Assembly (NCBI RefSeq): GCF_001542905.1
Contig: NZ_LOAJ01000001.1
Coordinates: 1,488,001-1,552,000, forward strand
Direction: 5' to 3'
DNA length: 64,000 nt
Origin: Halorubrum aethiopicum
GTDB taxonomy: Archaea > Halobacteriota > Halobacteria > Halobacteriales > Haloferacaceae
Of the stretch, positions 34,322 through 40,741 are shown in pieces; within the stretch, counting starts at the first letter, position 1; every line of letters starts with the position of its first letter. The position numbers and the translations under genes are program-made. The notes below the pieces were generated by a model. It was given only the letters and a program-made list of their open reading frames with translations. It ran no database searches and was not told the DNA's origin.

Positions 34322-35647
34322 CTACGTCGATCCGGGCGGCTCGGTCCCCGCGGACGGCTCGGTCCCCGCGGCCGGCTCGGTCGCCACCGCGGCCAGCAGC
34401 TCCCCGCCGTCGACGTCGCTCGGAACCTCGACGACCCGATCCGCCGCGTTCGCGATCCGACCGCGTGCGTCCGGCCCCTCGGTTCCGTCGGTGCGGTCGT
34501 CCCCGTCCGTCCGGTCGGGACCCGTCCCGTCACCGCCGACGACGACCGCGACGTCGGCGGCGGCGGCCAGTTCGCGCGCCGCCGCCAGCGACTCGGCGTC
34601 GACGGGCGCGAAGGGCGGGACGGTCACCGCCCTCGCGCCCGCGTCTGCGGCGGCCACGGCGGCGGCGTCGCCCTCGGGGACGACGCCGAGGGTGGTCGCG
34701 TGGCCGGCGGCCGCGAGCCGGGCCACGACCCGCGCCGCGTCCGGACCGGTGCCGACGACGTGGACCCGACGGGGGTCGGCGTCCGACCGCGGGAAGGCCG
34801 TGACCGCGGGCGTCCCGGTCGCCGGGTTCCGGCCGACGAACGCCTCCGCGTCGAACGCCTCGTGGACCGTCGCGGCGTCGAGCACGTCCGCCGGCGGGCC
34901 GTCGGCGCGGACCCGGCCGCCGGCGATGACGACGATCCGGTCGCAGTAGCGGGCCGCCATGTCGAGGTCGTGGATCGCCGCGATCGCGGCGCGGCCGTCG
35001 TCGGCGATGTCGCGGACGCGCTCCATCGTCGCCACGGCGTGGTTCACGTCGAGGCTCGCGGTCGGCTCGTCGAGCAGCAGCGCCGGCGTCTCCTGGGCCA
35101 GCGCCCGCGCGAGGAGGACCCGCTGACGCTCGCCGCCCGACACCTCGGTTATCGACCGATCGGCGAACCGCTCGACGCCGGCGGCGGCCATCGCCTCGTC
35201 GACCGCGGCCGCGTCCTCGGCGTCGTGGCCGTCGAACCGCCCGAGGTACGGGGTTCGGCCCATCTCGACGACGTGACGAACCCGGAAGTCGAAGGAGAGC
35301 CCCGTCTCCTGTGGAACGCTCGCCACGCGCCGGGCGACCTCGCGGGCGGACAGGTCGGCCGTCGGGTCGCCGTCGAGACGGACGGTGCCCCCGTCGGGCT
35401 CGATCGCGCCGGTCATCGCCCGGAGCACCGTCGTCTTCCCCGCGCCGTTCGGGCCGACGAGACCGACGAGCGTCCCCGGCTCGACGACGAGGTCGACCCC
35501 GGAGACCGCCTCGAGGTCGCCGAAGGAGACGGTCAGATCGCGGACGGCGACGAGCGGGTCGGCGGTGGAGGAGGGGTCGACGTCGGCGGGGGAGCGACCG
35601 GGGGCGGCGTCGTCGGCGTCGACCGCGGGAGCGGCGTCCCCGCTCAC
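34322..35647 (-). CDS. btuD: ABC transporter ATP-binding protein, corrinoid type, with C-terminal extension
   Basis: 441 residues from a GTG at 35647 whose TGA-overlap with the permease stop (GTGA) signals translational coupling. The ATPase domain (about 30-265) has Walker A GPNGAGKTT, signature VSGGERQRVLLARA, Walker B ALLLDEPT and the H-loop IHDLDMAARYCDR. The C-terminal ~170 residues (DPRRVHVVGTGPDAARVVARLAAAG onward) form an extra Rossmann-like domain with a low-complexity end, seen in haloarchaeal BtuD-type proteins; its role is unknown. It works with the adjacent permease and the divergently encoded binding protein. Confidence 0.83.
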   Translation of the reverse strand: MSGDAAPAVDADDAAPGRSPADVDPSSTADPLVAVRDLTVSFGDLEAVSGVDLVVEPGTLVGLVGPNGAGKTTVLRAMTGAIEPDGGTVRLDGDPTADLSAREVARRVASVPQETGLSFDFRVRHVVEMGRTPYLGRFDGHDAEDAAAVDEAMAAAGVERFADRSITEVSGGERQRVLLARALAQETPALLLDEPTASLDVNHAVATMERVRDIADDGRAAIAAIHDLDMAARYCDRIVVIAGGRVRADGPPADVLDAATVHEAFDAEAFVGRNPATGTPAVTAFPRSDADPRRVHVVGTGPDAARVVARLAAAGHATTLGVVPEGDAAAVAAADAGARAVTVPPFAPVDAESLAAARELAAAADVAVVVGGDGTGPDRTDGDDRTDGTEGPDARGRIANAADRVVEVPSDVDGGELLAAVATEPAAGTEPSAGTEPPGST

Positions 35648-36786
35648 AGCTCGTGCACCTCGCGGTTCATGAGCAGGTAGACGAAGAAGGGCGCGCCGAC
35701 GGCGGCGGTGACGACGCCGACCGGGAGCTCCGCGGAGCCGGAGCGGGCGGCCGTGTCGGCGGCGACGAGGAAGGTCCCGCCGGAGAGCGCGGCGGTCGGG
35801 AGCAGTATTCGGTGGTCGGGGCCGACGACGAGCCGGAGCATGTGCGGGACGATCAGGCCGACGAATCCGATTATCCCCGCGAACGCGACGCCCGCGGCCG
35901 TGATCAGCGCGCTCGCCGCGAGCAGGATCCGCTTCGTTCGCTCGACGTCGATCCCGAGCCCGTGCGCCTCCTCCTCGCCGAGCAGGAGGACGTTGAGGTC
36001 CCGGGCGTACACGAGAAGCACCGTGAAAAGCGGCGGGACGACGAGCATGGTGACGCCGACCTCGCTCCAGGCGGCCCCCGAGAGGTGGCCCATCAGCCAC
36101 GCGACGATCCGGCGGAGCGACTCGCCGGCCTGTAACTGGAGGTACGAGATGACCGCGCCGAGGAACGTCTGGACGGCGACCCCCGCCAGGAGCAGCGTCG
36201 CGACCGGCGTCCGGCCGTGTCGCGTCGCGATGGCGTAGACGCCGAACGCCGCGATCAGCGCGCCGACGAACGCGAACAGGCTCACGCCGGTCCCGTAGGA
36301 GACGCCCACGTCGACCGCGCCGAGAAGCGGGAGCGTCAGCGTCGTCGACAGCGCGGTCGGGAAGACGATGAACGCGACCGCGCCGACGGCCGCGCCCGAG
36401 GAGACGCCGATGATCGAGGGGTCGGCCATCGGGTTCCGGAAGAACCCCTGCATCACGGTGCCCGCGGCCGCGAGCGAGAATCCGACGAGCGCCGCGAGGA
36501 GGATCCGCGGGAGCCTGACGAGCAACACGATCCGGCGGTGGACGTCGTCGACGGGGAAGGCGAACGGCGACCGGTAGGCGAACTCCACGCCGGGGAGCGC
36601 GAGCGGACCCGCGCCCGCCGTCCCGAACTCCACGCCCGCGGGCACGACCGCCGCGTTCAACACGATCTTCGCCACCTCCGCGGGCGGGATGGAGACGGGA
36701 CCGATCCCGGCGCTGACGACGACGACGGCCGCCAGCGCGGCCGCTAGCGCGGTCGACCACGCGACGGCCCGACGCCGGACTCGCAT
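35644..36786 (-). CDS. btuC: FecCD/BtuC-type ABC transporter permease
   Basis: 380 residues from the ATG at 36786, the start that sits about 27 nt from the TATA region. About nine to ten transmembrane helices and the FecCD signature LPRILLAALVGFSLAAAGTVMQGFFRNPMADPSIIGVSSGAAVGA are present (residues about 90-130). It forms the membrane channel for vitamin B12 or a ferric siderophore; the corrinoid call follows from the operon and family annotation. Confidence 0.86.
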   Translation of the reverse strand: MRVRRRAVAWSTALAAALAAVVVVSAGIGPVSIPPAEVAKIVLNAAVVPAGVEFGTAGAGPLALPGVEFAYRSPFAFPVDDVHRRIVLLVRLPRILLAALVGFSLAAAGTVMQGFFRNPMADPSIIGVSSGAAVGAVAFIVFPTALSTTLTLPLLGAVDVGVSYGTGVSLFAFVGALIAAFGVYAIATRHGRTPVATLLLAGVAVQTFLGAVISYLQLQAGESLRRIVAWLMGHLSGAAWSEVGVTMLVVPPLFTVLLVYARDLNVLLLGEEEAHGLGIDVERTKRILLAASALITAAGVAFAGIIGFVGLIVPHMLRLVVGPDHRILLPTAALSGGTFLVAADTAARSGSAELPVGVVTAAVGAPFFVYLLMNREVHEL

Positions 36787-36800
36787 TCGATAGGCAACAA

Positions 36801-36825
36801 AACTTGTAGTAGGTAAATACTTATT
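36801..36825. promoter_or_regulatory. Overlapping divergent promoters of the BtuCD and BtuF genes
   Basis: The 62-bp gap holds one AT-rich patch. AAATACTTATT sits ~27 bp before the BtuF ATG at 36849, and the same patch read on the other strand (GTATTTACC) sits ~27 bp before the BtuC ATG at 36786. Both genes would be leaderless, and one regulator bound here could control both. Confidence 0.5.
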
Positions 36826-36848
36826 GGACCGGCCGTGTCGATACATCG

Positions 36849-38036
36849 ATGCGAGACAGCTTCGCGGTCGCGGTCGCCCTGCTCGTGACGACCGCCCTCG
36901 TGGGCGGCGTCGCGGTCGGGGCGGCGGGCGCACAGCCGACGACCGAGACGGGCGACGCTCCGGAGATCCGCGGGACGGGGCCCCACCAGGCGGACGATGC
37001 GGAGTGTTCGTTCCCGCTCACCGTCACCGACGCGACGGGAATGGAGATCACTCTCGAGGAGCCGCCGGAGCGGATCACGACGACGAACCCGTCGGCCGCA
37101 CAGACGCTGTGGGAGATCGGCGCGCGCGACCGCGTCGTCGGCGTGACCCAGTACGCCGCGTACCTCGACGGGGCGGGAGAGCGAACGAATGTCTCCGCCG
37201 CGGGCCTCGGCGTCGACGTCGAGAAGGTCGTCGGGACGGACCCGGACCTGGTGTTGGCCCCGAACGCCTCCGCCGACGACGTGGAGCCGCTCCGGAACGC
37301 CGACCTCACCGTCTACCACTTCTCGGAGGCGACCGACGTCGACGACATCGCCGAGAAGACGACGACCGTCGGCCGGCTGGTCGGCGCGTGTGACGCCGCC
37401 GCCGAGACGAACGAGGAGATGATGACCGCGGTCGCGGAGACGCGAAACCGGACCGCCGACCTCGACCGCCCGGACGCGCTCTACCCGCTGGGGAGCGGCT
37501 TCGTCGCCGCCGGTGACACCTTCATCGACGAGCTCATGACGATCGGCGGGGTCGAGAACGTCGCCGCCGCCGAACACGAGGGGTACCCGCAGCTCTCGGC
37601 CGAGGTCGTTCTCGAGCTGGATCCCGAGCTCATCCTCGTCAACGGTCCCGACGCGCCGATCATGGACGAGGAGCCGTACGCGAGCACGACCGCCGGCCGG
37701 GAGGGGAACGCGGTCGTCGTCGAGGTCCAGTGGCTGAACCAGCCGGCGCCGCGCAGCGTGATCGTGGCGACGTCGACCATCGCGGACGCGGTCGAGGAGT
37801 ACAACGCGGCACAGGGGAGCGACGACGGGAGCGAGAGCGCCGACGACGGCGAAAGCGGGACGGAGAGTGACGCTGGCGGGAGTGACGCCGACGACAGCGA
37901 CGGCGACGCCGGCGGGAGCGAGTCCGACGACGCCGGATCGGCCGGGACCGGCGACGAGGCTCCCGGGTTCGGGGTCGTCGCCGCGGTGCTGGCCGTGCTC
38001 GCGACGCTCGCCGTCGGCGTGACTCGCCGGCCGTAG
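36849..38036 (+). CDS. btuF: Corrinoid ABC transporter substrate-binding protein with PGF-CTERM tail
   Basis: 395 residues. A Sec-type signal (to about residue 28) precedes a BtuF/FhuD-like bilobed domain (RITTTNPSAAQTLWEIG, VVGVTQYAAYL, TDPDLVLAPN, YPLGSGFVAAGDTFIDELMTIGG, QLSAEVVLELDPELILV). An Asp/Ser/Gly linker follows, then PGF and a hydrophobic helix and RRP, the PGF-CTERM signal handled by an archaeosortase that leaves the protein lipid-anchored outside. It delivers the ligand to the BtuCD membrane complex encoded divergently. Confidence 0.87.
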   Translation: MRDSFAVAVALLVTTALVGGVAVGAAGAQPTTETGDAPEIRGTGPHQADDAECSFPLTVTDATGMEITLEEPPERITTTNPSAAQTLWEIGARDRVVGVTQYAAYLDGAGERTNVSAAGLGVDVEKVVGTDPDLVLAPNASADDVEPLRNADLTVYHFSEATDVDDIAEKTTTVGRLVGACDAAAETNEEMMTAVAETRNRTADLDRPDALYPLGSGFVAAGDTFIDELMTIGGVENVAAAEHEGYPQLSAEVVLELDPELILVNGPDAPIMDEEPYASTTAGREGNAVVVEVQWLNQPAPRSVIVATSTIADAVEEYNAAQGSDDGSESADDGESGTESDAGGSDADDSDGDAGGSESDDAGSAGTGDEAPGFGVVAAVLAVLATLAVGVTRRP

Positions 38037-38054: not shown

Positions 38055-39281
38055 TCAGATCCCCTGACCCATCAGGTGGCTGCGCAACACGTCGGGGGTC
38101 TTGAGCCCGGCGTCGGTGTTGAGCAGGACGACGGTCTCGTCGCCCTCGAAGTACCCCTCCTCGGCGAGTTCCCACGCGCCCGCCGGCGCGGCCCCGCCCG
38201 CGGCGCCCGTCTCGATCACCTCGTTCTGGGCGACGGCGACCGCGCTCGCGAGGACGTCCTCGTCGTCCGCGGTCACCGCGGTCCCGCCGCTCTCCTCGAT
38301 GGCCTCCAGGGCCTCGCGGCCGCCGGCGGGGTCGGGGATCTCCAACTCGCCGCAGATGGTGTCGGGCGTCGACCACGGCTCCGGCTCGTCGAGCCCGCGC
38401 TCGAGCGCGGCCGCGATCGGGGCACAGCCGCTCGCCTGGGCCGCGACGAGCCGGGGCACCGCGTCGATCGCGCCGATCCGCGCCAGCTCGGCGAAGCCCT
38501 TGTGGATCCCGGCGAGCACCTCGCCGGTGCCGGTCGGGACGACGACGACGTCGGGTGCGCCGCCGAGGTCCGCGACGAGCTCGAACGCGACCGTCTTCAC
38601 CCCCTCGTGACGGTAGGGAGTCGTAAACTCGTTGAGGTCCATGTACTCCGTCTCCAGCTGTTCGTCGACGGCGGCGGCCGCGTCGGGGTAGCGCCCGCCG
38701 ACGACCCGCATGTCGCCGCCGTGGACGTTCGTCATCGCCTTGTTCGAGAACGCGCAGCGCGAGGGGACGAACGCGTACGAGCGCAGCCCCGCCCGTCCGG
38801 CGTACGCGGCCATCGACTGGCCGGCGTTGCCGGGGCTCGCGCACGCGAGCGGCTCCACGTCGCGGTCGTCGGCGACCCCCGCGACCGCGGTCATCGCGAC
38901 CGAGAGCCCGCGGTCGAGGACGGTCCCCGTCGGGTTCCGCCCCTCGTCTTTGACGTAGACGCGCTCGACGCCGAGCTCTCCGGCCAGGCGGTCGGTCGGC
39001 ACGAGCGGGGTCGACCCCTCGCTCCCCGAGAGCGCGGCGGCCGCGGGGAACGGCAGGAGCGCGTCGTACCGCCAGTGGCCCAGCGCGCGTGCGCGCTCGG
39101 CGTCCCCCTCGCCGGCCGAAGCGGCTCCCGCGCCGAACAGCGCGTCGGGGTCGACCGCGTCGTAGTCGTAGGTCGGCTCGACGCGCCCCGTCTCCTCCGG
39201 GAGCTCCGCCGGGTCGGCCGTCTCGTACACCCGACCGGACGCGCGACTCTCCAGCCCGCGGAACGTCTCCGTCGTCTCCAT
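38055..39281 (-). CDS. Threonine-synthase-like PLP-fold protein lacking the catalytic lysine
   Basis: 408 residues from ATG 39281. The fold type II motifs are visible: substrate-start TPLVPTDRLA, VYVKDEGRNPTGT, the phosphate-contact loop SPGNAGQS, VVPTGTGEV and NTDAGLKTPD. The threonine synthase signature NPTGSFKDRG here reads NPTGTVLDRG, so Leu122 replaces the Lys that holds pyridoxal phosphate. I infer that it either does not catalyse a PLP reaction in the usual way or has a regulatory or altered role. It overlaps no neighbour; canonical thrC would be elsewhere. Confidence 0.8.
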   Translation of the reverse strand: METTETFRGLESRASGRVYETADPAELPEETGRVEPTYDYDAVDPDALFGAGAASAGEGDAERARALGHWRYDALLPFPAAAALSGSEGSTPLVPTDRLAGELGVERVYVKDEGRNPTGTVLDRGLSVAMTAVAGVADDRDVEPLACASPGNAGQSMAAYAGRAGLRSYAFVPSRCAFSNKAMTNVHGGDMRVVGGRYPDAAAAVDEQLETEYMDLNEFTTPYRHEGVKTVAFELVADLGGAPDVVVVPTGTGEVLAGIHKGFAELARIGAIDAVPRLVAAQASGCAPIAAALERGLDEPEPWSTPDTICGELEIPDPAGGREALEAIEESGGTAVTADDEDVLASAVAVAQNEVIETGAAGGAAPAGAWELAEEGYFEGDETVVLLNTDAGLKTPDVLRSHLMGQGI

Positions 39282-39418: not shown

Positions 39419-40741
39419 ATGGACGCAGACGCCATCGTCGTCGGCGGCGGGCTGGCCGGGCTCGTCTCGGCGGCCCGGCTCGCGGAGGCGGGCGCGGACG
39501 TGACGCTCCTCGAACGGCGGCCGCGCGTCGGCGGCCGGGTCCGTTCCCGCGAGGTCGACGGATTCACGCTCGACCGCGGGTTCCAGGTGCTGTTCACGAG
39601 CTACCCGGCCGTGGCGCGCGAGATCGACGCGGACGCGCTGGACCTCCGGCGGTTCTCGCCGGGCGCGACGATCTGTCGGCCGGGATCGCGGGCCGTCCTC
39701 TTGGACCCCCTCCGCGAGCCGACCGCCGCGGTCGAGTCCGCGCTCAACCGCGAGGTGCCCTTCTCCGACAAGCTCCGCACGCTCGCGCTCCGATACGACC
39801 TCTCGAAGCGCGGAGAGAACGAGTTCTTCGCGGACGCCGGCTCCGCCGCCGACGCCTCGATCCGCGAGTACCTCGCGGACTGGGGTTTCTCGAGCGACTA
39901 CGTCGCGAACTTCGTCGAGCCCTTCTACGGCGGGATCACCCTCGACCGGTCGCTGTCGACTTCGAAGCAGGTCTTCGAGTACACCTTCCGCGCGATGAGC
40001 CGCGGGTCGATCGCGATCCCCGCCGACGGGATGGCGGCGATCCCCGACCAGTTGGCCGAGCGCGCCGCGGACGCCGGCGTCGAGGTCCGCACCGGCGAGG
40101 ACGTCGAGGCGGTCGACGTCGGATCCGGCGGCCGGTTCCGACTCGGCTCCGGCGGCCCCGCCGACGGCGCGCGCGTCGAACTCGCGGACGGGGAGACGCT
40201 CGACGCGGACTGTGTCGTCGTCGCGACCACGCCCCCGGAGGCGCGGCGACTGACGGGCGTCGAGTCGATCCCCGAGTCGGGAGTTCCGAACGTCACCGCG
40301 TGGTTCGCGCTCCCCGAACGGTCGTCGTTTTCGACCGGAAAACGGATCCTGCTCAACGCGGCCGGCGAGTCGCCGAACGCGGTCGTGCCGATCTCGGAGG
40401 TCGCCCCCGAGTACGCGCCCCGGAACCGCCCGCTGCTCGCGGCGACGTTCCTCGGCGAGACGGCGCTGGAGCTCGAGGCGGCCGACCTCCGCGAGGAGAC
40501 CCGCGAGGCGCTCTCGGCGTGGTATCCGGAACGGGGGTTCGAGAGCCTCGAGACCGTCGCCGTCGACCGGATCCCCTTCGCGCAGTTCGCCCAGCCGTCG
40601 GGCGTCCACGCGACGCTTCCCGACCCGGACGACCCCGAGGGGCCGGTGGTGCTCGCGGGCGAGTACACCGAGTGGTCGTCGATCCAGGGCGCGCTGGAGA
40701 GCGGGCGGGCCGCGGCGGAGGCGGCGAGCGAGTACCGCTAG
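39419..40741 (+). CDS. FAD-dependent amine-oxidase/phytoene-desaturase-like oxidoreductase
   Basis: 440 residues from ATG 39419. The dinucleotide motif IVVGGGLAGLVSAARLAEAGADVTLLERRPRVGGRVRS, the ATTPPEARRL region and the C-terminal FAD-contact GEYTEWSSIQGALESGRAAAEAA place it in the protoporphyrinogen oxidase/phytoene desaturase superfamily. The substrate (carotenoid, quinone or amine) is not determined. The stop TAG shares bases with the stop of the convergent gene. Confidence 0.83.
   Translation: MDADAIVVGGGLAGLVSAARLAEAGADVTLLERRPRVGGRVRSREVDGFTLDRGFQVLFTSYPAVAREIDADALDLRRFSPGATICRPGSRAVLLDPLREPTAAVESALNREVPFSDKLRTLALRYDLSKRGENEFFADAGSAADASIREYLADWGFSSDYVANFVEPFYGGITLDRSLSTSKQVFEYTFRAMSRGSIAIPADGMAAIPDQLAERAADAGVEVRTGEDVEAVDVGSGGRFRLGSGGPADGARVELADGETLDADCVVVATTPPEARRLTGVESIPESGVPNVTAWFALPERSSFSTGKRILLNAAGESPNAVVPISEVAPEYAPRNRPLLAATFLGETALELEAADLREETREALSAWYPERGFESLETVAVDRIPFAQFAQPSGVHATLPDPDDPEGPVVLAGEYTEWSSIQGALESGRAAAEAASEYR

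Follow-up and report, generated by a model that had tools for sequence, protein, structure and literature searches.

A selectively maintained threonine-synthase-like protein of Halobacteria that has lost the Schiff-base lysine at its original locus

A gene of Halorubrum aethiopicum encodes a protein of the threonine synthase fold that carries leucine instead of the lysine on which the pyridoxal phosphate (PLP) chemistry of its relatives depends, and orthologues with and without this lysine occupy one locus in different families of Halobacteria. An essential catalytic residue has thus been lost in an enzyme homologue while selection retains the gene, two of the features that characterize a pseudoenzyme, and on balance we favour the reading of a cofactor-free pseudoenzyme, that probably binds a ligand or a protein partner. 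That the cofactor site as a whole is lost in the lysine-less forms is well supported, whereas the function that replaced catalysis is what we infer from the pattern of conservation.

The gene was analysed in a window of 64,000 nucleotides (assembly GCF_001542905.1, contig NZ_LOAJ01000001.1, positions 1,488,001–1,552,000), and all coordinates given here are window positions. Its open reading frame (38055–39281, minus strand) starts at a METT conserved among orthologues and encodes 408 amino acids running from METTETFRG to LRSHLMGQGI. The motif NPTGTVLDRG (residues 116–125, 38907–38936, minus strand) aligns to NPTGSFKDRG of threonine synthases, and codon CTC (38916–38918, minus strand) places Leu122 opposite Lys61 of Thermus thermophilus, the Schiff-base lysine of PLP fold-type II enzymes, so that the leucine reported by the first-pass annotation is borne out. 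NPTG and DRG are retained, as are Asn152 of the SxGN motif (38826–38828, minus strand), the counterpart of Asn87 that presumably contacts O3' of PLP in threonine synthase, and Thr389 (38115–38117, minus strand), the counterpart of Thr317, which we take to contact N1. The same annotation held the other loops of the PLP fold to be kept, which does not apply to the phosphate loop: residues 251–255 (38517–38531, minus strand), aligned to Thermus G187–N191 and assumed by us to contact the PLP phosphate in threonine synthase, read GTGEV versus GGGVG in lysine-bearing orthologues. The C-terminal tail DVLRSHLMGQGI (residues 397–408, 38058–38093, minus strand) is common to the lysine-bearing orthologues, and its end MGQGI is missing in the alignment from a second type of paralogue represented by L002 of the same genome.

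Assignment to the fold is supported by several lines of evidence. The Pfam PALP domain matches residues 85–390 with 220 bits (cut-off 35), and the AlphaFold model (mean pLDDT 83, pTM 0.88) retrieved threonine synthases in all of the best 21 Foldseek rows, with a TM score of 0.73 normalized to the query and 0.85 to the target for the fold-type II structure 2zsj_A. The closest matches of a PDB sequence search were the threonine synthases of Aquifex, Thermus and Mycobacterium. Threonine synthase (ThrC, EC 4.2.3.1; PDB 1uim/1v7c, 2zsj, 2d1f, 6nmx) and the window protein share the fold, the PALP domain, the NPTG..DRG frame and counterparts of R160 and T317, whereas the window protein differs in the missing Schiff-base lysine, the altered phosphate loop, the replacement of K116 by N180 and the additional C-terminal tail. 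Also close are lysine-bearing haloarchaeal orthologues that match the NCBIfam threonine synthase model NF006050 (PRK08197), such as L151 and L164, which score 383.5 and 380.4 bits and have the tail in common with the window protein, L151 also the locus; they carry K122, GGGVG and K228, positions at which the window protein differs. The window protein itself scores 264 bits, under the cut-off of 303 bits, and lysine-less relatives fall on either side of it (L161 330, L139 299, L187 191). As the lysine-less L161 exceeds the cut-off, some family members are probably misannotated as threonine synthases.

The absence of the lysine is not peculiar to one genome. At 45 out of 45 haloarchaeal orthologue loci (L009–L053) the lysine is missing, with Leu at 41, Phe at two and Tyr and His at one each, which rules out a sequencing error or a chance substitution and bears out the first-pass annotation in its mention of such variants elsewhere among the haloarchaea; the 46th locus among the named genomes, L054 from a gammaproteobacterial relative, has Lys. 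The change is at the same time broader than the exchange of Lys for Leu that had first been described, since 175 distinct family sequences hold many residues at site 122 (70 L, 43 K, 13 V, 12 T, nine R, nine A, five Y, five H, three F, three I and one each of E, Q and D), with at least 35 changes of the site residue on the family tree. Once the lysine was lost the site is thus close to unconstrained, and no replacement residue has taken over. This set left out L007, L008, L212, duplicates and sequences shorter than 280 amino acids, including L045, L193, L194, L195 and L196. L193 (G316), L195 (G037), L196 (G173) and L045 show stops (G316) or a split over two frames, which may reflect recent decay or assembly errors.

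On the DNA level, a degenerate pattern (NPTG, a Ser/Thr-type codon, any residue, a codon starting with C or T, DRG) was detected among 391 genomes of Halobacteria in 130, of which 122 are within the 135 genomes of the taxonomic family that includes the window. One outside hit, in G234, is likely due to chance, because no match to the protein family was obtained at its locus L213. When 120 genomes of the phylum were sampled, the best match outside the class reached 262.8 bits, the level of an ordinary threonine synthase. L212 (G285:C5) is a distant family match of 138 bits with the motif NPTGSVHDRG and may represent another lysine-less PALP lineage.

Loss of the lysine is accompanied by erosion of the surrounding cofactor site. 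In the alignment, loop 251–255 reads GGGVG in nearly all lysine-bearing orthologues and is worn in nearly all lysine-less ones. Counted over 85 rows, which are the 93 rows of the tree minus eight outgroup rows, G252 of this loop is present in 26/28 lysine-bearing versus 2/57 lysine-less rows and K228 in 25/28 versus 0/57, while N152 (27/28 versus 37/57) and T389 (28/28 versus 38/57) are lost less completely. A different set, also of 93 rows, all of them lysine-less and with the Halorubrum/g1 rows thinned to three, was compared at 144 positions that are nearly invariant in 26 lysine-bearing rows (L148, L149 and L174 excluded). Nine PLP-site positions have a mean entropy of 1.76 bits here versus 0.83 bits for the others, with a permutation p of 0.00045, or 0.0024 without position 122, in a test that ignores relatedness; a tree-aware pair test offers three independent pairs, too few for significance.

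A few rows depart from this coupling of lysine and loop. L148 (G307) and L149 (G142) have Lys (NPTGTSKDRG) within the otherwise lysine-less clade of family f4 and a worn phosphate loop, apparently a reversion of the letter without the cofactor site. L174 and L176 (G155 and G276) form a sister pair in which L174 has Lys together with the loop EGTEG and L176 has Leu, which suggests that erosion of the loop can precede loss of the lysine. L085 has Arg in place of the lysine, yet retains the loop GGGVA. As N152, T389, NPTG and DRG are retained in the window copy, it may still bind PLP weakly and non-covalently.

The lysine-less gene is nevertheless kept by selection. The collection of homologues and the selection test that had been proposed as a check were carried out, and the median dN/dS (Nei-Gojobori) is 0.207 over all 861 of 861 Halorubrum pairs, indicating purifying selection, with 0.166 over 28/28 lysine-bearing pairs and about 0.19–0.25 in the lysine-less groups, so that constraint on the lysine-less form is perhaps slightly looser. 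In the 93 lysine-less rows, 44 positions have an entropy below 0.15 bits, among them R124, R175, K181, M183, N185, G188, R197, R224, Q282, C286, P288, P306, D307, T308, G311, E314, R400, S401, L403, M404 and G407, and the C-terminal LRSHLMGxG tail is near-invariant. R197, P306–D307, G311, E314 and the MGxG end of the tail are common to the lysine-bearing orthologues and for the most part lacking in the L002-type paralogue. The model places R175 and R197 after strands 168–173 and 190–194; because both strands belong to one beta-alpha-beta unit, we predict that the two arginines lie on the side of the cleft that faces the substrate.

The genes next to the lysine-less gene tie both forms to a single locus. 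Its commonest neighbour in the protein family is a divergent FAD-dependent amine-oxidase-like gene (39419–40741, plus strand; Pfam Amino_oxidase 184.5 bits), whose cluster comprises 86 loci under 44 genus labels; a DtxR-type regulator comes next with 54 loci, and the other clusters include a LysE-type exporter at 37 loci. At least one of the three accompanies lysine-bearing genes in families f2, f3, f6, f7, f8 and f9 and lysine-less genes in f1, f2, f3, f7 and f10 and, with the FAD gene as the one neighbour, also in f4 (L097); LysE lies directly 3' of the lysine-bearing L092 and of the lysine-less L110, L112, L176, L184 and L185. A missing neighbour says little, because flank lengths vary among the loci. 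As both forms are found at one locus in different families, the lysine was lost within an orthologous gene. Of the regulatory paralogue proposed initially, the non-catalytic, possibly regulatory role fits, with an eroded site in a gene under purifying selection, whereas it is not simply a lysine-less paralogue, given the lysine-bearing orthologues at the same locus. The three neighbours recur, yet they point to no named function.

How often the lysine was lost was assessed with free and constrained trees. Without constraint, the main lysine-less rows form one group (SH-aLRT 97), from which L176 stands apart. Keeping family f7 in one piece, its lysine-bearing and lysine-less rows alike, lowers the likelihood by 2.0 lnL (AU p 0.481), and doing so for the f4 rows raises it by 0.9 lnL (AU p 0.515). 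Among quick LG+G4 trees, the one with a single lysine-less clade is 68 lnL worse and is not rejected (AU p 0.067), nor is the one in which f1, f4, f6, f7, f8 and f9 each form a clade, at a cost of 6.3 lnL (AU p 0.504). The tree that makes a clade of each and every family, the one test in which the f2 rows were constrained, is rejected (AU p 0.0004). The minimum number of changes between Lys and non-Lys is four on the free tree, three with a single clade and six and seven with families held; the trees with six family clades imply six changes, or five with the loop as an additional requirement. Since the trees show the loss in L176 as a separate one, the lysine would have been lost in place at least twice, perhaps five times. 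A single main loss, after which the lysine-less gene was transferred into the same locus of other lineages, would be a less natural account.

These data show the following course of events. The ancestor in haloarchaea was a fold-type II PLP enzyme of the NF006050 type that lost the Schiff-base lysine in place. In the lysine-less forms the phosphate loop, the nearby K228 and partly N152 and T389 drifted as well, and purifying selection kept the protein at the original locus. Such a protein would no longer hold PLP covalently and probably uses no PLP. What stayed fixed from R175 onwards (R175, K181, M183, N185, G188, R197, R224, Q282, C286, P288, PDT 306–308, G311, E314 and LRSHLMGxG) resembles, judged by alignment and secondary structure, the substrate-facing half of the cleft together with a family-specific surface. 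The most likely role would hence be the binding of a small anionic amino-acid-like ligand and/or of a protein partner without chemistry, and the protein would act as a sensor or as a regulatory subunit. The lysine-bearing ancestor probably had this second role already, which would have made repeated loss of the lysine possible.

A more far-reaching version of this proposal, which we advance tentatively and hold to be somewhat less than an even bet, assumes parallel conversions across Halobacteria at one locus, with the same non-cofactor residues and the tail kept each time. The ancestor would then have had a selected function independent of PLP, and the present protein would be a receptor or scaffold for an amino-acid metabolite, which perhaps acts in connection with one of its neighbours, the LysE-type exporter or the amine-oxidase-like flavoprotein.

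The other readings depend in part on the paralogues of the protein. The window genome contains nine PALP-family matches including the window protein; L002 (NPTGTFKDRG) and L003 (NPTGSFKDRG) have the family motif with lysine, and L004, L005 and L006 have lysine at the motif site as well. Because lysine-bearing threonine-synthase-like genes coexist with it in the genome, the lysine-less protein need not make threonine. In Haloferax volcanii, a transposon mutant of the gene designated thrC3 (HVO_2969) is rescued by Gly, Ser and Thr in combination (PMC4300041). Part of f1 has an additional lysine-bearing copy, represented by L002 and its relatives L211, L209, L182, L208 and L178. This copy is missing the end of the C-terminal tail and groups with lysine-bearing genes of f2 and f6, a possible re-acquisition of the enzyme.

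Fold-type II enzymes are dimers as a rule, and LCB1 of serine palmitoyltransferase is a PLP-fold protein that, like the window protein, lacks the lysine; unlike it, LCB1 is of fold type I and an obligate heterodimer with LCB2. The lysine-less protein could by analogy be a non-catalytic subunit that activates or stabilizes a lysine-bearing PALP paralogue, for which eight further family matches in the window genome are candidates, including the lysine-bearing L002 with 48 % identity. For another enzyme, the trypanosomatid deoxyhypusine synthase, such activation of a live partner by a dead paralogue is documented (PMC3663545). An L002-type partner is not general, however, as a single family match at E≤1e-95 was found in 14 of 46 genomes of the same genus and in 60 of the 89 other genomes of the same taxonomic family with the lysine-less pattern, so that the role of partner would fall to a different paralogue, for example the true threonine synthase. 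We regard this subunit reading as unlikely.

Still more doubtful is a working enzyme that proceeds by another route, either with PLP or PMP held non-covalently and another base or in a cofactor-free reaction. The protein does retain the fold, NPTG/DRG and what is probably the substrate half of the cleft, and His occurs at the site in five of the 175 family sequences, which recalls ColD, a PMP enzyme with His for Lys in another fold. Against this mechanism, that had also been raised at the outset, stand the changes at site 122 on the tree, at least 35 without any single conserved substitute, and the loss of the phosphate loop as well. A column table of the alignment showed no lysine that is fixed in the lysine-less rows and missing from the lysine-bearing ones, and a substitute catalytic residue was rejected as the main reading for want of a conserved replacement at the site.

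A decaying gene on its way to loss is the least probable reading, since the three in-frame stops in G316, the split over two frames in G037 and G173 and the longer branches of the lysine-less rows compared to the lysine-bearing ones are outweighed by the low dN/dS of the lysine-less groups, the 44 near-invariant positions and the absence of internal stops among the matches listed.

Returning to the cofactor-free pseudoenzyme, comparable cases are found among PLP enzymes. The ornithine decarboxylase antizyme inhibitors (AZIN1/ODCp) belong to a different PLP fold. They are inactive homologues of a PLP enzyme with a regulatory role (PMC2748086). Unlike the window protein they are eukaryotic and their partner is known. 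A search of one open-access library found no description of lysine-less haloarchaeal threonine synthases. Pseudoenzymes as such are already known; in the present case a single locus within one class is occupied by orthologues with the lysine as well as by orthologues without it, so that the change from an enzyme to a cofactor-free protein can be traced stepwise, possibly in replicate. As genetically tractable haloarchaea exist, what remains of the protein after loss of PLP is a directly testable question.

Two features distinguish the Halorubrum-type loci. By reading, and by Pfam for 36849–38036, a BtuD/BtuC/BtuF-like transport cluster (34322–38036) adjoins the gene at these loci only; its convergent BtuF-like periplasmic binding protein (36849–38036, plus strand; Pfam Peripla_BP_2 82 bits) belongs to a neighbour cluster of 35 loci with three genus labels, likewise confined to Halorubrum-type loci. 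Furthermore, an N-terminal CxxC...CxxC ribbon, corresponding to the part of the coding sequence at about 39190–39250, is missing in 42 of 42 Halorubrum-type lysine-less rows, whereas nearly all lysine-bearing rows have it, as do most of the lysine-less rows from other genera.
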